DNA from: Chryseolinea serpens
Lineage (GTDB): Bacteria; Bacteroidota; Bacteroidia; Cytophagales; Cyclobacteriaceae
NCBI RefSeq assembly: GCF_900129725.1
Contig: NZ_FQWQ01000006.1
Location: 310,001 to 374,000 of the forward strand
Direction: 5' to 3'
DNA: 64,000 nucleotides
Part shown: piece by piece, positions 50,680-61,906 of the stretch
How positions within the stretch are numbered: the stretch's first letter is position 1
How the letters are laid out: the number at the start of each line of letters is the position of its first letter
Notes under the pieces: generated by a model
What the model saw: only the letters and a program-made list of their open reading frames with translations
Database searches by the model: none
Told to the model about the DNA's origin: nothing
Program-made: the position numbers and the translations under genes

Positions 50680-50737
50680 GAGTGTTTCAACTTTGAATGA
50701 TATTATTGCGTTTTTGATCATATAAATACTATTGGTT

Positions 50738-53700
50738 ATGGGAGCAGGAGTGGAGCGCATTCATGAAAAGATAGGGTCATTCAAGAAAAAGTATTACCTC
50801 AACATTTTTGTGCGAGGTGCTATTCTCACCTTGTCTATTCTCATCTCGTATTTTCTGATTGCCGTTTTGCTGGAGTACAATCTCTGGCTTGGACCGGTGG
50901 CACGGTTTTCCATATTCCTGGCTTTCTTCGCCGTCGTCGCGTTTTGTCTTTACCGGTTTTTGAAGGATCCACTACGGTGGTGGTTTGCAAAACAGGGTCT
51001 TTCCGAGGAACAAAGCGCCCAAGTGATCGGGAAATACACGCCCACCGTAAAAGACGGACTACTCAACCTCATCCAGCTCTCGGCAACACAAAAAGATTCC
51101 GCTTTGGCTTATGCCAGTGTCGAACAAAAGTCCAGGGAATTTGAGTCGGTTTCGTTTGATAGTTTTATCGATCTGCAGCAAAACAAACAGTATGTAAAGT
51201 ACCTCATCGTGCCGCTGTTGGTCATCGTCGGAATTATTTTCATCAACCGGAGCATCCTCACCCAAAGCACCGACCGAATCGTCCACTTTACACGCCACTA
51301 TTCTCCGCAGGCACCCTTCAAATTTTTAGTAGACCCCGAATCCCTCACAGCCTTTCACAATGAGAAGCTTACGCTGAACGTGCAGCTGCAAGGGGAAGCG
51401 TTGCCTGAAAGTGTCTACCTGCTTTCGGGAAACCAGCGGCTTAAACTTGAGCACTTGTCGGCCGATCAATATTCTTATGCCTTTGAAAATGTTCAGGAAG
51501 CATTCGACCTTCAGTTTGAAGCGGCCGGATTTTTCTCAGACGTCTATCACGTAACGGTTTCGGCCCGACCGGAGCTTTCCAACTTTAGCGTCGACCTGCA
51601 ATTCCCGCGCTACCTGCAGCGGAAGAACGAACGGCTTAACAACGCCGGCAACCTGGAAGTGCCGGAAGGTACGGTGGTGAAATGGAACCTGGCAACACGC
51701 GATGCACAGCAGGCCAGCATTCTTTTTTCTTCTGAAAAATCACCGTTCGACATGCAGGAGTCCGGTGGTGATTTGTTTAGCTACGGAAAAGAATTCAGGA
51801 ACCCCGATCAATACGAGATCATCCTGAAAAACGACAAGACAAAAAATAAAGAACGCATCGCCTATCACGTGGACGTGATCAAGGACGAGTTCCCCAAAAT
51901 TCAGGTCAACAATTTCAAGGACTCCGTGCTCTACAAAATGGTGGTGCTGAGCGGGCTGGTCGGCGATGATTATGGGGTGAGCCAATTGGCGCTTCATTTC
52001 AAGATCAGAAATGAAAATCAAAAAGAGATCCTCAGCGAAACGTCGGTCATTCCCATAGCCAAAAACCAGCTGCAACAAAGTTTCTTCCATCCTTGGCGGC
52101 TGGATTCCCTGGACCTGAAGCCGGGCAACCAATTGGAATATTACCTCGAGGTTTGGGACAACGACGGCGTGAACGGAAGAAAGTCAACCAAGACCGCACG
52201 CTACACCTTCATGGTTCCTTCGGAAGACAACCTGGTGGCCGAGATCAAAAGCTCACAGAACAAAACGCAGCAGAAGATCGACCAGAGCGCCGGCAAAGCC
52301 AACAAGCTTCACGAAAAAGTAGAGGAGGCCAACCAAAAGCTGAAAGGCAAACAGAGCCTCGACTGGCAAGACAAAAAAATGCTGGAAGACATCGTCGACC
52401 AAAAACAGGGACTCGACAAGTTGGTGGAGGAATTGAAAGAACAGAACAAACTCCTGGAACAGAAAAAAGAAGCCTTCACTAAACAAGACGAGCGGATCAA
52501 GGAGAAGGCGGAGCAGATCCAAAAACTGATGAACGAGCTCCTGGATGATGAAACCAAGAAGCTGTTCGAAGAACTTCAAAAACTTCTGCAGGAAAATAAA
52601 GATGTTTCACAAATCCAGAAAATCCTGGACAAGCTGAACCAGAACACAAACAACCTGGAGAAAGAGCTGGAAAGGACACTGGAATTGTTCAAGCAATTGC
52701 AATACGAATTCAAGCTCGACCAGGCCGCTCAGGATTTGAAGAAATCCATGGAAGAACAAAAAGCATTGCTGGAGAAGACCGAGGCGCTTGAAAAAAACAC
52801 CGAGGCAAAAGCCAACAAAGATCAAAAAGCCGATAACAAAAAAGATAAAAACAAAGACGCCAAAAATCAGGACAATAAAAACCAGGACGGAAAAGATCAG
52901 GACGGTAAGAACAAGGACGGAAAAGATCAGGACAGTAAGGACAAGGATGGTAAAAACCAAGACGGCAAAAATCAGGATCAAAAGAACGACGGCGACAAGA
53001 GCGACAAGAATAACGAGGACGGAAAAAACAGCGAAAGCCAGGAGCTGGCCAAAGAACAGGATAAACTGAAACAGGATTTCCAGAAAACAGCCGAGCAGAT
53101 CGAAGAATTAAAGAAGCTGGGCAACGAGCTGCAGAAGGACGACGACCTGCCCTCGGAGAAATCTTCGGAAGAAGTAGAGCAAGACCAGGAGGAAAGCAAA
53201 GACCAACTCGAGCAGGACAGCCCTTCAAAATCAAAGAGCTCACAGCAAAAGGCCCTTCAAAAAATGCAGAAGATGCAACAGCAAATGGAAGGTGCGCAAG
53301 AGGGGATGGCCATAGAAATGGACATGCAAAATCTGGAGGCGCTCCGCCAGATCATCCACGGCCTGGTGAAACTTTCGTTCGATGAAGAGGGCTTGATGAA
53401 AGGATTTAGTGAGCTGAACCAGAACGATCCCAACTTCAACACCATTGCACAAAAGCAATTAAAGCTCAAAGATGATGCTAAAGTATTGGAAGACAGTCTG
53501 TTAGCTCTTGGAAAGCGTGATCCTTACATGAATTCGATCGTGACAAAAGAGGTTGGCGATCTGAATGAACACCTCGATAAAGTGATTGAAGCAAACCGCG
53601 AGCGCCGCCGGCCCCAAGCTGCGAGCGAAATGCAAATGACGATGACGTCCATCAATAACCTGGCCCTTATGTTGGATGACCATTTCGACATGATGACCCA

Positions 53701-54250
53701 GATGATGCAAAACGCAAAGCCGTCGATGGGCAAGTCAAAGAAGAAAGGGCAGAAGCAAAGCCTCAGCCAGATGCAACAACAATTGAATCAGAAAATTCAG
53801 GAGTTGAAGGGAAGTGGAAAGCAGGGTCGCCAGCTCTCGGAGGAATTGGCGGAGATGGCAGCCGAACAGGAAAGGATTCGGAAGGCGCTCCAGGAGATGC
53901 AGGAAAAGATGAAAGATGGAAAAATGCCGGGTGGCGATTTGCAAGGCAAGATGGAGCAATCGGAAATGGACTTGGTGAACAAGCAACTCTCGGAGCAATT
54001 GATCAAGCGTCAACAGGAAATTGTAACGCGATTGCTGGAGACCGAGAAGTCGGCACGCGAACAGGACATGGATGAAGAGCGCAAAGGCGAAACAGCTAAG
54101 GACTATGAAAAAGAAATACCCAAGGCCTTTGAAGATTATTTGCGTCTAAAGGAAAAAGAAGTAGAATTGCTTAAAACAGTGCCACCTAAGCTTTACCCAT
54201 ATTATAAGAAAGAAGTGAGTGAATATTTCAAAAGAGTGGGTGAGCAATAA
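50738..54250 (+). CDS. DUF4175 family large membrane protein with charged coiled coil
   Basis: 1170 residues from ATG 50738; a TTG two codons earlier is possible. Three hydrophobic segments lie at about 27-50, 57-75 and 152-170, then a beta-rich periplasmic-type region to about 500 (FLVDPESLTAFHNEKLTLNVQLQ, FSVDLQFPRYLQRKNE). A long, very charged helical region of about 650 residues follows, including a Lys/Asp/Asn/Gly repeat tract near 693-766. The family is confined to Bacteroidota as far as I know and has no assigned role. The C-terminal part (KSKKKGQKQSLSQMQQQLNQKIQEL, LAEMAAEQERIRKALQEM) is the conserved core. Confidence 0.85.
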   Translation: MGAGVERIHEKIGSFKKKYYLNIFVRGAILTLSILISYFLIAVLLEYNLWLGPVARFSIFLAFFAVVAFCLYRFLKDPLRWWFAKQGLSEEQSAQVIGKYTPTVKDGLLNLIQLSATQKDSALAYASVEQKSREFESVSFDSFIDLQQNKQYVKYLIVPLLVIVGIIFINRSILTQSTDRIVHFTRHYSPQAPFKFLVDPESLTAFHNEKLTLNVQLQGEALPESVYLLSGNQRLKLEHLSADQYSYAFENVQEAFDLQFEAAGFFSDVYHVTVSARPELSNFSVDLQFPRYLQRKNERLNNAGNLEVPEGTVVKWNLATRDAQQASILFSSEKSPFDMQESGGDLFSYGKEFRNPDQYEIILKNDKTKNKERIAYHVDVIKDEFPKIQVNNFKDSVLYKMVVLSGLVGDDYGVSQLALHFKIRNENQKEILSETSVIPIAKNQLQQSFFHPWRLDSLDLKPGNQLEYYLEVWDNDGVNGRKSTKTARYTFMVPSEDNLVAEIKSSQNKTQQKIDQSAGKANKLHEKVEEANQKLKGKQSLDWQDKKMLEDIVDQKQGLDKLVEELKEQNKLLEQKKEAFTKQDERIKEKAEQIQKLMNELLDDETKKLFEELQKLLQENKDVSQIQKILDKLNQNTNNLEKELERTLELFKQLQYEFKLDQAAQDLKKSMEEQKALLEKTEALEKNTEAKANKDQKADNKKDKNKDAKNQDNKNQDGKDQDGKNKDGKDQDSKDKDGKNQDGKNQDQKNDGDKSDKNNEDGKNSESQELAKEQDKLKQDFQKTAEQIEELKKLGNELQKDDDLPSEKSSEEVEQDQEESKDQLEQDSPSKSKSSQQKALQKMQKMQQQMEGAQEGMAIEMDMQNLEALRQIIHGLVKLSFDEEGLMKGFSELNQNDPNFNTIAQKQLKLKDDAKVLEDSLLALGKRDPYMNSIVTKEVGDLNEHLDKVIEANRERRRPQAASEMQMTMTSINNLALMLDDHFDMMTQMMQNAKPSMGKSKKKGQKQSLSQMQQQLNQKIQELKGSGKQGRQLSEELAEMAAEQERIRKALQEMQEKMKDGKMPGGDLQGKMEQSEMDLVNKQLSEQLIKRQQEIVTRLLETEKSAREQDMDEERKGETAKDYEKEIPKAFEDYLRLKEKEVELLKTVPPKLYPYYKKEVSEYFKRVGEQ
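52815..53034 (+). repeat. degenerate KDG/NQDGK repeat tract within DUF4175 gene
   Basis: About 73 codons with near-periodic K(D/N)xDGKNQD units (for example GKDQDGKNKDGKDQD), A-rich in DNA. The stretch links two coiled-coil parts and is likely disordered and highly hydrophilic. Repeat units are imperfect, so array slippage is possible. Confidence 0.8.
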
Positions 54251-54702: not shown

Positions 54703-55125
54703 ATGTCGTCCATCCGATTCTTTGAGGAGGACATCACATTCCAAATCCCGCATCCGCGGAAGACATCAACCTGGATCAAGTCTGCGATAGCAAAAGAAAA
54801 GAGAATGCTCGGTGAGCTGAACTTTATCTTTTGCTCAGACAACCACCTTCGCCAGATCAACATCCAGTATCTCAACCATCACACCTTTACCGACATTGTG
54901 ACCTTCGACACCAGTGAGGAAAAAGGTCTAATCTCCGGCGACATCTTTATCAGTATAGACCGCGTACAGGAAAACGCTCAAAAGTTCAAAACTACGTTCG
55001 ACCACGAGCTACACCGGGTCCTCATTCATGGGGTACTTCACCTGGTTGGCTACTCCGACAAGGGAACGGACAAGAAAGCCGCCATGCGCAAAAAAGAGGA
55101 TGCTTATCTATCTTTGCGTAAGTAA
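54703..55125 (+). CDS. ybeY: endoribonuclease YbeY (rRNA maturation factor)
   Basis: 140 residues starting immediately after the previous stop. YbeY is a metal-dependent RNase that matures the 3' end of 16S rRNA and takes part in ribosome quality control. The metal-site motif HGVLHLVGYSDKG has His109 and His113. The third ligand, usually His, is Asp119, as I recall being common in Bacteroidota. The second half of the gene is followed by a parS-rich gap before mnmG. Confidence 0.93.
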   Translation: MSSIRFFEEDITFQIPHPRKTSTWIKSAIAKEKRMLGELNFIFCSDNHLRQINIQYLNHHTFTDIVTFDTSEEKGLISGDIFISIDRVQENAQKFKTTFDHELHRVLIHGVLHLVGYSDKGTDKKAAMRKKEDAYLSLRK

Positions 55126-55139
55126 GTTCCACGTGGAAC
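55126..55139. other. parS-like ParB-binding site 1
   Basis: GTTCCACGTGGAAC, a perfect 14-bp palindrome immediately after the ybeY stop. It matches the widely conserved parS core GTT(C/T)CACGTGGAAC-type sequence. Confidence 0.75.
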
Positions 55140-55171
55140 CTAAGCTTATCCTCATTGCTTGTAGAAGTAGC

Positions 55172-55185
55172 GTTCCACGTGAAAC
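55172..55185. other. parS-like ParB-binding site 2
   Basis: GTTCCACGTGAAAC, one base from a perfect palindrome and a common natural parS variant. Centre 46 nt from site 1. Confidence 0.75.
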
Positions 55186-55226
55186 AAATTGTGGAATTGT
55201 TGATGAATTTTGTGGGTAAGTATCAG

Positions 55227-55240
55227 GTTCCACGTGAAAC
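55227..55240. other. parS-like ParB-binding site 3
   Basis: GTTCCACGTGAAAC, identical to site 2, centre 55 nt further on and 19 nt before the mnmG ATG. Three copies in 115 bp is far beyond chance for a 14-mer. Confidence 0.75.
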
Positions 55241-55258
55241 CTTTTTAAAAACACGCAT

Positions 55259-57121
55259 ATGTTTCAAGAATACGATGTAATTGTGGTGGGGGCAGGCCAT
55301 GCGGGTTGCGAAGCAGCTGCCGCTGCGGCCACTATGGGGTCAAAGACCCTATTGGTGACGATGAATATGAACACGATCGCCCAGATGTCGTGCAACCCGG
55401 CTATGGGTGGGGTGGCTAAGGGTCAAATCGTAAGAGAAATAGATGCCTTGGGTGGAATGTCCGGAATTGTGTCGGATAAGTCCATGATCCAGTTCAGAAT
55501 GCTAAATCGCTCCAAAGGTCCCGCCATGTGGAGCCCCAGAACCCAGAATGATCGGATGAGATTCTCCGAAGAGTGGAGACTGGCCTTGGAGCGCACCCCT
55601 AATCTCGACTTCTGGCAGGAAATGGTCAAAGAGATCCTCGTGGAGAACGGAAGGGCAGTGGGAGTGAAGACGGCACTTGGGTTGGACATCCGGGCCAAGG
55701 CTGTGGTGCTCACCAACGGCACTTTCTTGAATGGAAAGATCCATATCGGGGAAAAGAACTTCGGTGGGGGACGAACAGCTGAAAAGTCGGCCACTGGATT
55801 GACTGAACAACTCATTACCCTTGGATTTGAGGCTGGAAGAATGAAAACGGGCACGCCTCCCCGCGTAGATGGCAGAAGTCTCGATTATTCTAAGATGGAA
55901 GAACAACCCGGCGACCTGGAGCCTGGAAAGTTCTCCTACTCCGACACTCAGCCCCTTCAGAAACAAATCAGCTGTTGGATCACCTATACGAATGACACGG
56001 TCCATAAGGAACTTCAAAAAGGCTTTGAGAAATCGCCGATGTTCCAGGGCCGCATCAAGGGCCTTGGTCCCCGGTACTGTCCCTCTATAGAAGACAAAAT
56101 AAACCGGTTCGCGGAAAGAGACCGCCACCAGATCTTTGTTGAGCCCGAAGGTTGGAATACGGTCGAGATCTATGTGAATGGATTCTCCACGTCCCTGCCC
56201 GAAGATGTCCAGCACAAGGCCCTTACCCGCATTCCAGGTTTTGAAAAGGCTAAGATGTTCCGGCCCGGGTATGCAATAGAGTATGACTTCTTTCCACCAA
56301 CGCAGCTCGGCTTGAGCCTCGAAACCCAATTGATTCAAAACCTCTACTTCGCGGGGCAGATCAATGGCACCACTGGCTATGAAGAGGCGGCTTGTCAGGG
56401 ACTCATGGCGGGCATCAATGCCCACCAGAAGGTCCACGGAAATGACCCTTTCATATTGAAGCGCTCGGATGCGTATATCGGAGTGTTGATCGACGACCTT
56501 GTCAGCAAGGGTACCCAGGAACCTTACCGGATGTTTACATCCAGGGCCGAATACCGTATCCTGCTGCGGCAGGACAACGCCGACATCCGGCTAACCGAAC
56601 TTGGACATTCTATTGGACTGGCAAGTGATGAAAGAAATGAAAAGGTCCTAGCCAAGAAACGGGATGTGGAAGCCCTTACCATTGAACTCAACAAGACAAA
56701 GCTCGAACCGGAATCCATAAACGAAGGACTAGAAGGTCTCCAGACTACAGCCATTCGCGAAAAAGTTGCTGCAAGTCACCTGTTGAAACGTCCTCAAATC
56801 GGTATCACGTCTCTGAAAGGCATCAACTCAGATCTCGAAAGGCTTCTGAATAAATACTCTATCGAAGTACAAGAACAGGCCGAAATCAACATTAAGTACG
56901 ACAGCTACATCGAACGCGAGGAGCAACTGGTGCAAAAGCTGGGCAACCTCGAGAACTTTAAGATCAGAACCGATTTCGACTATGATCGCGTGAAAGCTTT
57001 GTCATCCGAGGCCCGCGAAAAACTGAAGCGAATAAAACCCGAAACCGTCGGCCAGGCATCACGCATCAGTGGCGTGTCTCCCGCCGATGTTTCTGTACTT
57101 ACAATCTATATGGGTAAATGA
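55259..57121 (+). CDS. mnmG: tRNA uridine 5-carboxymethylaminomethyl modification enzyme MnmG (GidA)
   Basis: 620 residues, full length. MnmG with MnmE modifies U34 of tRNAs reading NNA/NNG codons, using FAD and methylene-tetrahydrofolate. Seen here: FAD motif VVGAGHAGCEAA near 10-21, MSCNPAMGGVAKGQIVREIDALGG, NGTFLNGKIHIGEKNFGGGR, GTPPRVDGRS and GQINGTTGYEEAACQG. It lies downstream of the parS-like sites. Its stop overlaps the next gene by 4 nt. In many bacteria gidA is close to the replication origin. Confidence 0.97.
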   Translation: MFQEYDVIVVGAGHAGCEAAAAAATMGSKTLLVTMNMNTIAQMSCNPAMGGVAKGQIVREIDALGGMSGIVSDKSMIQFRMLNRSKGPAMWSPRTQNDRMRFSEEWRLALERTPNLDFWQEMVKEILVENGRAVGVKTALGLDIRAKAVVLTNGTFLNGKIHIGEKNFGGGRTAEKSATGLTEQLITLGFEAGRMKTGTPPRVDGRSLDYSKMEEQPGDLEPGKFSYSDTQPLQKQISCWITYTNDTVHKELQKGFEKSPMFQGRIKGLGPRYCPSIEDKINRFAERDRHQIFVEPEGWNTVEIYVNGFSTSLPEDVQHKALTRIPGFEKAKMFRPGYAIEYDFFPPTQLGLSLETQLIQNLYFAGQINGTTGYEEAACQGLMAGINAHQKVHGNDPFILKRSDAYIGVLIDDLVSKGTQEPYRMFTSRAEYRILLRQDNADIRLTELGHSIGLASDERNEKVLAKKRDVEALTIELNKTKLEPESINEGLEGLQTTAIREKVAASHLLKRPQIGITSLKGINSDLERLLNKYSIEVQEQAEINIKYDSYIEREEQLVQKLGNLENFKIRTDFDYDRVKALSSEAREKLKRIKPETVGQASRISGVSPADVSVLTIYMGK

Positions 57122-58008
57122 AAGAATTGAAGAGCTGTCCCGTCTGCCAAAGTATCTCGTTTCAGAAGTTCATCACTGCTAAAGACTATACCGTTTCACG
57201 GGAAACATTTGCCCTGGTCAAATGCGATAGTTGCGGATTTATATTCACCAACCCCATTCCCGATCCAGAGAGGCTAGGAGAATACTACCTCTCCGACGAT
57301 TACATATCCCACTCAAAAAAAGCAACCGGCGTTATCGACAAGATCTATGTCGTGGCCCGAAGCTTCACATTGAAATGGAAATTGGGTCTCATTCAGAAAT
57401 ACACCGGAAACCAAGACAAAACCATTCTTGACTACGGCTGTGGCACAGGCGACTTCTTGAAAGCCTGCAAAGACAAGGGCTGGGTCGTCACCGGCGTCGA
57501 GCCTTCCGAAAAAGCGAGGCAACTAGCCACGGACCAAACCGGTGAAAAGATCGCAGCATCATTGAAGGATGTCGAAACAAAAGAATTCAATACAATAACA
57601 CTTTGGCACGTACTTGAGCACATCGAGGACCTGAACCACACCCTCCAACAATTAAAGGACAAGCTCAGTCCAAACGGCACACTCCTGATCGCCGTGCCAA
57701 ACCACGCCGCTTGGGACGGCACCCACTACGGACAATATTGGGCGGGATATGACGTGCCACGACACCTCTGGCATTTCACTCAACAAACCATGACGACGCT
57801 CTTGACGAAGAACAACCTTAAACTCGATGACATCGTACCGATGAAACTCGATGCTTACTACATTAGCTTACTCAGTGAAAAATATAAAGCCAACGGTAAG
57901 GCTGGACTCGCTGGCATGATAATCGCAGCCGCAAACGGACTCCGGTCGAACCTCAGCGCCCGGAAAAACAAAAACTATTCGAGCCTTATTTACATTGTGA
58001 GAAAATGA
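57118..58008 (+). CDS. class I SAM-dependent methyltransferase with N-terminal zinc-ribbon-like region
   Basis: 296 residues, overlapping mnmG by 4 nt (ATGA). The first 45 residues hold two CxxC pairs (CPVC and CDSC, at 8-11 and 38-41), likely a zinc ribbon. The SAM motif ILDYGCGTGDFLKACKDKGWVVTGVEPSE (near 101) and NTITLWHVLEHIEDL follow, as in sugar or quinone-type methyltransferases of family 11/12. The acceptor is unknown. A degenerate parS-like palindrome lies within the first 100 bp of the coding region. It overlaps the next gene by 4 nt. Confidence 0.9.
   Translation: MKELKSCPVCQSISFQKFITAKDYTVSRETFALVKCDSCGFIFTNPIPDPERLGEYYLSDDYISHSKKATGVIDKIYVVARSFTLKWKLGLIQKYTGNQDKTILDYGCGTGDFLKACKDKGWVVTGVEPSEKARQLATDQTGEKIAASLKDVETKEFNTITLWHVLEHIEDLNHTLQQLKDKLSPNGTLLIAVPNHAAWDGTHYGQYWAGYDVPRHLWHFTQQTMTTLLTKNNLKLDDIVPMKLDAYYISLLSEKYKANGKAGLAGMIIAAANGLRSNLSARKNKNYSSLIYIVRK
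57193..57206. other. degenerate parS-like site inside the methyltransferase gene
   Basis: GTTTCACGGGAAAC, a single change (G for T) from GTTTCACGTGAAAC, the canonical parS core. It encodes VSRET between the two CxxC pairs. Weak on its own. Confidence 0.35.
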
Positions 58009-59747
58009 ATCTCCGAAAGCATCTTCATTGGTTAATGTATCCACTGTTCTTTCTGGCCTGCGCCCGACAGACCACTCCCACCGGCGGCCCGAAAGACAGC
58101 CTCGCGCCAAAGTTAGGGCCCAGCATTCCTGAAAATGGACAAATTAAATTTAAGGGAAAAAGTGTAGAACTTACGTTTAATGAGGCTGTTCAGGTCAACA
58201 ATCCAAAGGAACAAATCATCATCATTCCTTCCGTAGGCAAAGATTTCGAGGCGACCGCCAAAAAGAATAAAGTCGTGCTTACGTTCAAAGACAATCTAAA
58301 GGACAGCACAACCTACTCCATCAACTTCCGCGAAAGCGTTCAGGATCTCACAGAAAAGAACCCAGCCAAAAATCTTAAGCTCGCGTTCAGCACCGGCGAC
58401 TACATAGACTCACTCTCCATCGAGGGTTTCATCTTCGATCCTCTCAAAGGCAAAGAAAGCAAAGACGCCACCGTCGCGTTGTTCCAGGCCGACACCTTCA
58501 ACATCTTCAAACACAAGCCCGTCTATCTGACCAAAACCAATGAAAAGGGAGAATATATAATAGAGAACCTCAAACCCGGCGACTACTATTTATACGCCAT
58601 GGAAGACAAGAATAAGAATCTCCTAGTAGACAGTAAATCAGAGACTTACGGGTTTGTAGCCCAAAAAATAACGCTCACCGAAGACATCAAACAAGAAGAT
58701 ATCCCGGTCATTAAATTGGATACACGCTCGCTAAAGCTCACAAATTCAAGGCCTTACAATACCTACTTCAACATAAAGACTTCCAAGAATCTGGATCACT
58801 ACCATCTTACGCCCACAGAAGGCGAGATCCTCCTTTCGGCTTTCGCGGAGGACCAAAGCAATATCCGCGTTTACAACACCATCGAAGACAAAGACAGTTT
58901 GGCTGTCAGGTTCAACGCCTACGACAGCGTGAACAATTCTATCGATACTACCGTGTATATCAAATTCACCAAGCGCGAAGTGAAGAAAGATCCCTTCAAA
59001 GCAACAGCCTCTCAATTCAAAGTCATCGGAACAAAGGGAATTCTAAGGGGGACCATTTCCTTCAATAAACCCATCGCGGCGATAAACTTTGACAGCATCT
59101 ATTACCAGATCGACTCCGCCAAAGTAGTACCGATCCTGGCCGAGGATATTAAGATCGATAGCGCTCACAATAAGGTTATCATCGAGAAAACCTTCGACAA
59201 AACCCTTATCCCAAAAAAACCAGACCCTTCGACGGAACCCCCGAAAAAGAAGGAAGCGCCAAAACCACCGCCGCCCAAACCAGCCACTGCCGCTGCCCCC
59301 ACACAAGGTCCAAAAAAACCGGTGGCACAACCAAAGCCTGTGCAGAACCAATTCATCACCAGCAAAGGAACCTTCATCAGCGTCGAGCTAGACAGTTCCG
59401 CAGCAACTCGTGAAACACTGAAGCCCTCAACTCTCGAAGAAACTGGAATCATTTTCATCGAAGTGAAAACGGAAGAAAAAAACTTCATCATCCAGCTGCT
59501 CAACAAGGATTTCAAACCGGTTGCGTCGAAGACAAATACCGCCAAAACTTCATTTGAGGATCTCGATCCGGGCGAGTATATGATCCGGCTCATTATCGAC
59601 AAGAACGGCGATGGAAAATGGAGTCCCGGAAATTTCCAGTTGCGTGAAGAACCCGAGCCAATAGTTTTCTATAAGAACGAAAAAAACACGCAAACCGTAA
59701 ATCTCAAGGCAAATTGGGAGCTTGGACCATTGTTAATAAGCTATTGA
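58005..59747 (+). CDS. Ig-like domain lipoprotein
   Basis: 580 residues with a lipoprotein signal (FFLAC, Cys19) then RQTTPTGGPKDSLAPKL. An SbsA-type Ig-like domain (about 40-125: PENGQIKFKGKSVELTFNEAVQVNNP, STTYSINFRESVQDL, AFSTGDYIDS) is followed by a SpaA/collagen-binding-like segment (SIEGFIFDPLKGKESKDATVALFQ, NEKGEYIIENLKPGDYYLYAMEDKN), a Pro/Lys-rich linker near 410-445 and a final Ig-like domain (FIIQLLNKDFKPVAS, EYMIRLIIDKNGDGKWSPGNF). Surface exposure by Bacteroidota lipoprotein export is likely. Function unknown. The gene ends at the putative replication origin. Confidence 0.85.
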   Translation: MNLRKHLHWLMYPLFFLACARQTTPTGGPKDSLAPKLGPSIPENGQIKFKGKSVELTFNEAVQVNNPKEQIIIIPSVGKDFEATAKKNKVVLTFKDNLKDSTTYSINFRESVQDLTEKNPAKNLKLAFSTGDYIDSLSIEGFIFDPLKGKESKDATVALFQADTFNIFKHKPVYLTKTNEKGEYIIENLKPGDYYLYAMEDKNKNLLVDSKSETYGFVAQKITLTEDIKQEDIPVIKLDTRSLKLTNSRPYNTYFNIKTSKNLDHYHLTPTEGEILLSAFAEDQSNIRVYNTIEDKDSLAVRFNAYDSVNNSIDTTVYIKFTKREVKKDPFKATASQFKVIGTKGILRGTISFNKPIAAINFDSIYYQIDSAKVVPILAEDIKIDSAHNKVIIEKTFDKTLIPKKPDPSTEPPKKKEAPKPPPPKPATAAAPTQGPKKPVAQPKPVQNQFITSKGTFISVELDSSAATRETLKPSTLEETGIIFIEVKTEEKNFIIQLLNKDFKPVASKTNTAKTSFEDLDPGEYMIRLIIDKNGDGKWSPGNFQLREEPEPIVFYKNEKNTQTVNLKANWELGPLLISY

Positions 59748-59823
59748 CAACTTGTGGATTGATGACAGCAACTTGGGCAAAAAACCGATAAATACCCCAA
59801 TTCGCGGAAAGAGAAAATCTGCT

Positions 59824-59832
59824 TGTGCATAA
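59824..59832 (-). promoter_or_regulatory. DnaA box (reverse, perfect)
   Basis: TGTGCATAA, reverse complement TTATGCACA, full match to TTATNCACA. It lies in the candidate origin. Confidence 0.6.
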
Positions 59833-59942
59833 GCAAACGGTTACCCACAACGTTTACATACCTAATGATCCACACCTCATCTATACACACCCAAAAACAT
59901 TGTTGACAACCTCCTAAGCCGCTGATAAAGAAAAGATTAATA

Positions 59943-59950
59943 TATATTTG
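59943..59950 (+). promoter_or_regulatory. -7 promoter element of the TPR gene
   Basis: TATATTTG is an exact TAnnTTTG. CTG (one mismatch from TTG) lies 18 nt upstream. Transcription would start near 59956, so transcripts of the TPR gene would cross the last DnaA box. Confidence 0.35.
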
Positions 59951-59988
59951 AATTCTACATAACTTCCACAATCCAAACCGGGTAAAGG

Positions 59989-59997
59989 TTATACACA
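59989..59997 (+). promoter_or_regulatory. DnaA box (forward, perfect)
   Basis: TTATACACA, full match to TTATNCACA, ending 7 nt before the TPR gene's ATG at 60005. Confidence 0.6.
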
Positions 59998-60004
59998 ATT
60001 GAAC

Positions 60005-61906
60005 ATGCCTAATAATATCTATATATATATATCTTATATAAGATTAATAAGGAACACCCTATTCGGGATAACTTTTCTTCTCCTTTTCTCTTGTTTTTCC
60101 GTTTTCGCTCAGAACCAGGATGACATTCAGCTGGCGAATGAATATTTATTAAAAGGCGATAAGAAAAAGGCGCTGGAGCTTTATCGCGATCTGGCCAAAA
60201 GTGATGTGAACACACCGTTTATTTATAACAACTATTTGAACGTGTTGCTTGACCTGGGCAATTTCGATGAGGCGCAAAATTTCTTAAAAAAAATCTCGAA
60301 GCGCGACCCGCTTAATATTCAATACAGGCTCGATGTAGGTCTCACCTATGTGAAGGCCGGGGACATGGCCCGTGCGGATAAATATTTCCGGGAGCTGATC
60401 GGCGAAAGCAAGACCAACGTGCAGCGCATAAAAATGATGTCGGACTATTTTATGTCGCATTCGCTGAATGACTACGGGATCCTTTCACTGACGGAAAGCC
60501 GCGAATCGCTTGGCAACCCCTCGCTGTTTTGTCTGGAGCTGGCGATGCTCTATCGCATAAAAGGAAACCAGGATAGAATGGTGCAGGAATATCTGAACTA
60601 TGTCACCCAAAATTCCGGCAACATTCAATATGTAAAAAATGTCATGCAGGCCCTGCTCACCAAACCGGAGGAGCTCGAAAGCCTGGAGCGGCTGCTATAC
60701 GACAAGGTGCAACAATATCCCGATGTGGAAGTGTATGCCGACCTGCTGATCTGGGTGACGATGCAGCAGAAAAATTTTTATGGATCGTTTATCCAGGCCC
60801 GGGCGTATGACAAACGCTACAAGCGCGACGGCGAAAAATGTATGGAAGTTGCACGCGTTGCGCTGGACAATGAAGATTATGACACGGCTTTAAAAATTTA
60901 CCGCTACCTGATCCGGGAGTATCAGGGATCCCCAAATTATTTATTGGCACGGCTAGGATTGATTCGCACCCGGGAAGCCCGCGTGAAAAATACCTACCCG
61001 GTAAAAATGGATTCGGTGAAAATTTTGATTTCGGACTACAAAAGTTTTATAAAACAATATCCCGACAACGTGAATTCGCTGGAGGCTTCCAAGAGCGAGG
61101 CCATGTTGTTTGCGAGCTACCTCGATCAAAAAGATTCGGCTGTTCATATCCTGGACAAGTTGATCGCCAATCCGAAAGCCACGCTCTATTTGAAATCGAA
61201 AGCCAAGCTGGACCTGGGTGATATTTATATGCTGAAGGGCGAACCATGGGAATCTTCTTTGCTGTATTCGCAAGTTGAAAAAACGCAAAAAGAGAATCCG
61301 GTCGGCTACGAAGCAAAATTGAAAAATGCAAAACTCTCCTACTACAAGGGCGACTTCCGCCTGGCGCAAGAACACCTGGACATTTTGAAACAGGCCACCA
61401 CCCGCGAGATCGCGAACGACGCGTTGGACCTGAGCATGCGCATCAAAGAAAATGTGGCGATCGACTCAACCGGGGAGGCACTAAAACAATATGCGTCGGT
61501 TGAGTTGCTGTTGTATCAAAACAAAACTGAGGAGGCGTTGAAAAAAATCGAATTCCTCAAACAAGGCACCTCGGGCACCGGCGCTTCTTTTTCGAACCAG
61601 ACGATCCTGGACGACGTCTATTTCCTGGAGGCCAACATCCGGATGCAGCGGGGTGAGTTTGAAAAATCCCTCACGCTCCTTCAAAAAATAATTGACGACT
61701 ACGGCGACGACATCCTGGCCGATGATGCCTATTTTCTGCAAGGGGAGATTTATGAGCGCCAGCTAAAAAATAAGGACAAGGCAATGGAGATTTACCGCGA
61801 CTTCCTTTCGAAATATCCCGGAAGCGTTTTCGCGGCGGAGGCCCGCAAGAGGTTCCGCCAGCTTCGCGGAGATTTTAACGGACAGGAGCAGCCCGCCCAA
61901 TTCTAA
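60005..61906 (+). CDS. exported tetratricopeptide-repeat protein
   Basis: 633 residues from ATG 60005; a TTG two codons upstream overlaps a DnaA box and is disfavoured. The first 20 residues (PNNIYIYISYIRLIR) are encoded by an (AT)-rich tract and precede a signal-peptide core ending near VFAQ. The mature part is made of TPR-like helices: QLANEYLLKGDKKKALELYRDLAK, NFDEAQNFLKKISKRDPLNIQYRLDVGLTYVKAGDMARADKYFREL, LKIYRYLIREYQGSPNYLLARLGLI, and a C-terminal YbgF-like pair ending ADDAYFLQGEIYERQLKNKDKAMEIYRDFLSKYPGSVFAAEARKRF. It is probably periplasmic or outer-membrane associated; the partner is unknown. A terminator follows. Confidence 0.86.
   Translation: MPNNIYIYISYIRLIRNTLFGITFLLLFSCFSVFAQNQDDIQLANEYLLKGDKKKALELYRDLAKSDVNTPFIYNNYLNVLLDLGNFDEAQNFLKKISKRDPLNIQYRLDVGLTYVKAGDMARADKYFRELIGESKTNVQRIKMMSDYFMSHSLNDYGILSLTESRESLGNPSLFCLELAMLYRIKGNQDRMVQEYLNYVTQNSGNIQYVKNVMQALLTKPEELESLERLLYDKVQQYPDVEVYADLLIWVTMQQKNFYGSFIQARAYDKRYKRDGEKCMEVARVALDNEDYDTALKIYRYLIREYQGSPNYLLARLGLIRTREARVKNTYPVKMDSVKILISDYKSFIKQYPDNVNSLEASKSEAMLFASYLDQKDSAVHILDKLIANPKATLYLKSKAKLDLGDIYMLKGEPWESSLLYSQVEKTQKENPVGYEAKLKNAKLSYYKGDFRLAQEHLDILKQATTREIANDALDLSMRIKENVAIDSTGEALKQYASVELLLYQNKTEEALKKIEFLKQGTSGTGASFSNQTILDDVYFLEANIRMQRGEFEKSLTLLQKIIDDYGDDILADDAYFLQGEIYERQLKNKDKAMEIYRDFLSKYPGSVFAAEARKRFRQLRGDFNGQEQPAQF

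Follow-up and report, generated by a model that had tools for sequence, protein, structure and literature searches.

A predicted chromosomal replication origin near mnmG and away from dnaA in Chryseolinea serpens

The gap at about 59731-60055, between a Big_5/DUF2141 ORF and the gene for a TPR-repeat protein, is very probably the chromosomal replication origin of Chryseolinea serpens. It lies in the window that we analysed, a 64-kb stretch (contig C3:310001-374000) from a draft genome (G000) that totals 8.36 Mb over 10 contigs. An origin had been predicted in this gap from the sequence, and we find this prediction supported by the density of DnaA boxes, by a split of GC skew in relatives and by a conserved parS cluster that is unique in the genome. 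The absence of dnaA from beside the origin, also part of the original prediction, holds for the gap, as the DnaA gene lies on contig C8 and the predicted origin on C3. DnaA binding, strand opening, ParB binding and origin activity at the gap are activities that we infer from these features.

The gene order around the gap is ybeY, three parS sites, mnmG, a methyltransferase gene, the Big_5/DUF2141 ORF, the gap, the TPR-protein gene and an M20 peptidase gene (Table 1). About 2.6 kb and two genes separate mnmG from the gap. The ATG at 60005 was taken as the start of the TPR gene from the reading frame that is kept open in G000, G001, G002 and G005. Farther to the left, 50732-54250 encodes a 1172-aa protein with a KDKN/QDGK repeat region and a weak similarity to DUF4175 just below the curated cut-off.

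Table 1. Features of the predicted origin and its surroundings (positions in the window).
Feature	Position	Strand	Details
Three parS sites	55126-55240		55126-55139, 55172-55185 and 55227-55240, between ybeY and mnmG
mnmG (gidA)	55259-57121	+	PF01134, E 5.3e-165
Big_5/DUF2141 ORF	58005-59747	+	left neighbour of the gap
Left reverse pair of DnaA-box-like sites	59731-59761	-	22 nt apart; overlaps the 3' end of the upstream ORF
DnaA-box-like site	59731-59739	-	TTATTAACA, one mismatch (8/9); sixth box, in the 3' end of the upstream ORF
DnaA-box-like site	59753-59761	-	CAATCCACA, two mismatches
DnaA box	59824-59832	-	TTATGCACA, exact
DnaA box	59841	+	TTACCCACA, one mismatch; first of three in 59841-59889
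DnaA box	59866	+	TGATCCACA, one mismatch
DnaA box	59881	+	CTATACACA, one mismatch
Second AT-rich, weakly stable stretch	59922-59971		fourth least stable 50-bp peak in the window
Predicted unwinding module (BUS-like) and DNA unwinding element	59987-60055	+	profile R1 match and weak duplex
DnaA box	59989-59997	+	TTATACACA, exact; opens the predicted unwinding module
DnaA-trio-like triplets CTA-ATA-ATA	60009-60017	+	other strand 3'-GAT-TAT-TAT-5'; 11-nt spacer after the box end at 59997
TPR-repeat protein	60005-61906	+	right neighbour of the gap; N-terminus signal-peptide-like by eye; first codons apparently overlap the predicted unwinding element

DnaA boxes and the predicted unwinding module

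The original prediction had pointed to five 9-mers, and we recover the same five: DnaA boxes matching at 8/9 or 9/9 positions, two of them exact and one reversed, within the 174 bp of 59824-59997. Across the whole window, the number of boxes with at most one mismatch is what chance would give (40 found and 40.8 expected), so it is their clustering that counts. In 300 dinucleotide-shuffled versions of the 64-kb window, neither five boxes in 174 bp nor six boxes in 300 bp was ever reached, and the maximum was four at either width. We also sampled 467 kb of the C. serpens genome, taken from the window, from the dnaA locus and from 20 stretches of contig C3. The highest box count for any 300 nt in this sample is at the site, with six boxes against three in the runner-up. 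Box density, which had been proposed as a check on the prediction, therefore speaks for it. The site is likewise the densest 300-nt box window of the sampled DNA in G001, G034, G040 and G017.

Individual boxes are conserved to different degrees. The exact box at 59824 aligns to TGTGTATAA in G001 and G003 and to TGTGCATAG in G002. In six sequences from the same genus, the ACA ends of the boxes at 59841, 59866 and 59881 are invariant and the remainder varies. A reverse pair of boxes with at most one mismatch each, 21-22 nt apart, is found at the left end in 7 of 15 correctly oriented loci (L007, L010, L012, L018, L019, L024 and L028). A repeat search of the gap returned just short two-copy matches and no iteron-like family.

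The gap had been described as AT-rich. Its A+T content does exceed that of the window (61.8% vs 50.3%), which makes it only moderately AT-rich; the part with 82% A+T, 60005-60055, begins where the interval first noted stops (60004). That interval ended too early: the predicted unwinding element occupies 59989-60055, which takes it into the next ORF. In the window as a whole, duplex stability is lowest at 60001-60050 among 50-bp segments and at 59940-60039 among 100-bp segments.

The 11-nt spacer between the box at 59989 and the triplets contains a degenerate second box, and a TA-repeat run extends from the triplets to about 60050. The triplets agree with a published search rule, which the matched passages of PMC8287927 give as at least three 3'-NAN-5' no more than 16 bp from a DnaA box. 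This rule is loose, and conservation over 29 loci is the weightier evidence for the predicted module. When expectation-maximisation was run over 29 related gaps, seeded with a motif spotted by eye, the shared module was TTWTCCACA-N-ATCCACAG, two or three bases, TAATAATAATA and AT-rich DNA. The first triplet keeps its TA in all 29 aligned loci, and the triplet run is interrupted by one base in several relatives. In most of these loci the tandem second box is clear; in G000, G001, G002 and G005 it is degenerate (TTGAACATG-like). These same four genomes carry an ATG inside the module, and their unwinding element apparently codes for the N-terminus of the TPR protein. G003 and G004 have no such ATG in the module, and their TPR start apparently lies downstream.

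Conservation across relatives and a candidate relocated origin

Of 59 genomes searched with the TPR gene, 57 contained a match, and the best 30 of these were examined as loci, the window's own included. In 28 of these 30 loci (best 30 of 57), the box count in the gap upstream of the TPR gene exceeds that of 100 of 100 shuffles. The two exceptions are G005, whose four boxes equal its largest shuffle, and L009 (G016), which is truncated by a contig edge. A second set was made up of the 53 loci, out of 55 returned, that had 700 nt or more upstream; it partly overlaps the first (at least G002 to G005 are common to both). In 46 of these 53 loci, 400 nt held at least four boxes, and seven had no cluster. 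A control stretch inside the TPR genes held four or more boxes in 1 of 53.

We ran R1, a sequence-only profile of the unwinding module, on the 59 genomes under strict filters (89 of 726 candidates scored). With these filters, the one match reported in C. serpens at E ≤ 1 falls at the site (C3:369987-370049, E 1.7e-7). In the training set, R1 scored highest at the site in 28 of 29 genomes and missed it in G029. We then considered as held out the 21 genomes that have a strong TPR orthologue (E below 1e-30) and were left out of training. In eight of them (G019, G026, G027, G045, G046, G050, G051 and G052), the best R1 match is directly upstream of the TPR gene. The other 13 of 21 have no best R1 match at the TPR gene, and extending R1 to distant orders mostly gave no match at that gene. 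Together with the 7 of 53 loci that lack a cluster, these 13 genomes indicate that the position of the predicted origin is not universal.

A strong TPR orthologue is missing in 9 of the 59 genomes. Four of these nine were examined (G006, G024, G030 and G035), and in all four the best R1 match follows a Big_5/DUF2141 homologue (25-29% identity) and has a different gene to its right. The other five (G022, G025, G028, G043 and G057) have weaker R1 matches (E 3e-4 to 0.12). The predicted origin is independent of the TPR gene, as judged from this pattern. Conversely, the TPR upstream region was read in six genomes that have no R1 match there. Five of these regions (G056, G038, G054, G048 and G037) hold only 0-2 one-mismatch boxes in roughly 1.1 kb. 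In the sixth, G039, the left neighbour is retained and 236 nt upstream of the TPR gene contain four one-mismatch boxes, none exact, so a diverged origin may be present there. In G016, one of the 13 genomes above, the best R1 match (C16:8-67) and the TPR gene (edge of C48, L009) both lie at contig ends, which suggests that the assembly may break at the predicted origin.

In G056, mnmG, the TPR gene and the best R1 match (E 0.0037) are widely separated. At about 3.017 Mb on contig C1 of this genome (L219:2183-2945), 27 DnaA boxes, 12 of them exact, lie in 763 nt. Near its right end the array reads TTATCCAC-TTATTAACA-CTATAATAGTAATAG, the same box-triplet module, and more than 1 Mb separates the array from mnmG as well as from the TPR gene. 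This array looks like a candidate relocated origin. It adjoins a glutamate-dehydrogenase-like gene, named by sight. When this neighbour was sought in eight genomes, the closest sequence outside G056 was in G048 (58% identity), and G037 had one at 33%.

One broader reading, which we put forward tentatively and hold to be possible rather than probable, is that the origin core of Cytophagales is a movable unit that was relocated in G056, and that in the Chryseolinea clade its triplets also encode the start of the TPR protein. If the core is movable, its usual seat would be between the Big_5/DUF2141 gene and any right-hand gene. If the triplets are also TPR codons, origin opening would be tied to transcription of the TPR gene.

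parS, GC skew and the position of dnaA

A parS site near oriC is usual in bacteria, though not obligatory. The exact parS sequence GTTYCACGTGRAAC occurs three times in the 8.36-Mb genome of C. serpens, and all three copies are in the cluster beside mnmG, 4.7-4.9 kb from the module in the gap. A reversed-pattern control gave 0 matches in this genome. With the slightly looser pattern GTTNCACGTGNAAC, we found one to three copies in each of 11 relatives out of 12. These copies all lie immediately upstream of mnmG, at a distance of 3.8-4.9 kb from the R1 match at the TPR gene. No parS was found in G056 with the GTTNCACGTGNAAC pattern. The reversed-pattern control gave 0 matches in nine relatives and in G056, and per strand 1 match in G001 and 2 in G002. 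The parS-like cluster had been named in support of the original prediction, and its uniqueness in the genome and its conservation in 11 of 12 relatives strengthen that argument. ParB is encoded on contig C10.

Two other sites were noted near the cluster. A run of reverse DnaA-like sites (TTGTGGAATTGTTGATGAATTTTGTGGGTAA) lies between the parS sites at 55189-55219 and has a similar form in G000-G003. A parS-like site with two mismatches is found at 57192-57207, within the methyltransferase ORF.

Skew was sampled in four single-contig relatives, with 60 stretches of G001 (1.06 of 8.24 Mb) and 20 stretches each (0.4 Mb) of G034, G040 and G017. Skew splits near this locus in all four, clearly in G001, G034 and G017 and weakly in G040 (Table 2).

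Table 2. Sampled GC skew in four relatives. Corrected skew is gene-strand corrected, at third codon positions. The permutations treat stretches as independent and so overstate certainty.
Quantity	G001	G034	G040	G017
Half-genome contrast, origin at this locus	+0.035	+0.058	+0.020	+0.068
Half-genome contrast, origin at dnaA	0.000	+0.033	-0.027	-0.056
Permutations per 1000 reaching the raw contrast	0	0	103	0
Permutations per 1000 reaching the corrected contrast	0	2	4	0
Position of the site (Mb)	1.987	3.763	3.671	1.750
Best half-split, raw (Mb)	1.98	3.46	4.72 (1 Mb off)	1.78
Best half-split, corrected (Mb)	1.98	3.78	3.70	1.78
Raw cumulative minimum (Mb)	2.51-2.71	3.44-3.75	3.31-3.65	1.76-1.96
Permutations per 1000, gene polarity	17	73	440	187
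Distance from dnaA to the site (Mb)	1.71	0.86	2.79	2.41

The original prediction expected the skew minimum at the site. In these samples, the best half-split does fall at or near it, apart from the raw value of G040, but the cumulative minimum of G001 is 0.5-0.7 Mb away and the change along contig C3 of C. serpens is slight (raw skew -0.0135 to the left and +0.0012 to the right; corrected skew -0.0275 to -0.0059). The cumulative minima of the other three relatives are near the site and, at this spacing, do not exactly bracket it; the corrected minimum of G040 is at 3.69-4.01 Mb. Skew in the genus Chryseolinea is weak, and the raw skew of G040 is not significant. Gene polarity backs the site only in G001.

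Alternative readings, a proposed mechanism and known systems

The boxes might instead form a DnaA-regulated promoter of the TPR gene, with no origin present, and the cluster does lie directly upstream of this gene in most relatives examined. However, the module is kept in the four genomes with a different right-hand gene (G006, G024, G030 and G035), and the TPR gene does without the cluster in G056, G038, G054, G048 and G037. A promoter would also leave parS and the skew unexplained, and we consider it very unlikely. DnaA-titration sites are likewise dense in DnaA boxes, and the C. serpens cluster holds only two exact boxes, so the gap could be a datA-like site with the origin elsewhere nearby. 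We give this only a very small chance, as the gap has the conserved box-box-triplet-AT module and the weakest duplex of the window, and the strictly filtered R1 search reported no further match in the genome at E ≤ 1.

Two other readings place the origin at a different locus. It could lie in the intergenic region between parS and mnmG (55125-55258), or be bipartite with boxes there, since each of G000-G003 has at least one reverse one-mismatch box (TTACCCACA) between its parS sites. However, among the other eight loci such a box is absent from six and occurs once in each of two. None of the window's eight least stable peaks falls in this region, nor does any R1 match reported at E ≤ 1, and this reading appears extremely improbable to us. 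An origin beside dnaA, as in many bacteria, would agree with the usual default marker, which is adjacency to dnaA according to the matched passages of PMC10225481. Yet the C. serpens dnaA locus shows no box cluster (only 2 one-mismatch boxes in 3.5 kb), and in G001, G034, G040 and G017 the skew contrast at dnaA is below the contrast at this site. We see practically no chance that the origin is there.

If the gap upstream of the TPR gene is the origin, then DnaA, the product of a distant gene, would bind the box array and pass from the box at 59989 and the degenerate second box onto the triplets CTA-ATA-ATA. It would stretch the triplet strand and so open the AT-rich DNA at 60001-60050, where helicase would be loaded and two forks would depart. 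ParB bound to parS, 4.7 kb leftward, would organise and segregate the new origins. The start point would then be fixed for this and many related chromosomes, which matters for growth-rate estimates from coverage, for assembly rotation and for vectors. It also cautions that dnaA may be an unreliable mark of the origin in Cytophagales. A conserved origin core free of dnaA, with an apparent relocation in one lineage, would offer a natural series in which to test what an origin requires.

The oriC of Escherichia coli is the gidA-mioC region, near mnmG/gidA and away from dnaA. The predicted origin of C. serpens shares this setting but differs in its box layout and in the roughly 2.6 kb and two genes that separate it from mnmG.

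The predicted unwinding module resembles BUS, which the matched passages of PMC8287927 and PMC6669920 describe as tandem boxes, the upstream one nearer to consensus, with a spacer of 10-13 bp and a first trio of 3'-GAT-5'; the DnaA filament grows 3' to 5'. As in the BUS of Bacillus subtilis and others, there is a box pair in most of the loci, a spacer of this length and trios of the 3'-GAT-5' type, here adjoining AT-rich DNA. In contrast, the second box is degenerate in the Chryseolinea group, and the module here is predicted from sequence. The unwinding region of B. subtilis, as described there, lies between dnaA and dnaN, unlike the module here.

Among the matches listed in the open-licence literature, there was no origin paper for Chryseolinea or Cyclobacteriaceae. 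For Bacteroidetes, the matched text of PMC4755523 calls an oriC far from dnaA common. The predicted oriC of Prevotella intermedia OMA14 in that paper, like the one here, has a skew switch and a DnaA-box cluster and is far from dnaA. In Flavobacteriaceae, oriC was put at mnmG with Ori-Finder and skew, according to the matched parts of PMC11278836 and PMC12843772. The oriC of Mariniflexile litorale (PMC11278836) shares with our site a skew switch and a place beside mnmG and away from dnaA, and that of Algorimicrobium (PMC12843772) shares a skew switch and lies at mnmG. In PMC11278836, a figure legend marks mnmG as ter, which contradicts the text of the paper as matched. These three organisms belong to other orders, and parS and an unwinding module are absent from the matched descriptions of their origins.

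In gut Bacteroidetes, parS, skew and coverage indicate that the ori is not always with dnaA, and coverage agreed throughout 12 strains according to the authors (matched passages of PMC10197239). There, as here, a parS cluster and skew mark an ori that need not adjoin dnaA. That placement concerns other species and is experimental, whereas ours draws on sequence only. Because origins distant from dnaA have been published for Bacteroidota, the kind is already known, and the predicted origin of C. serpens would be a new and well-supported member of it.
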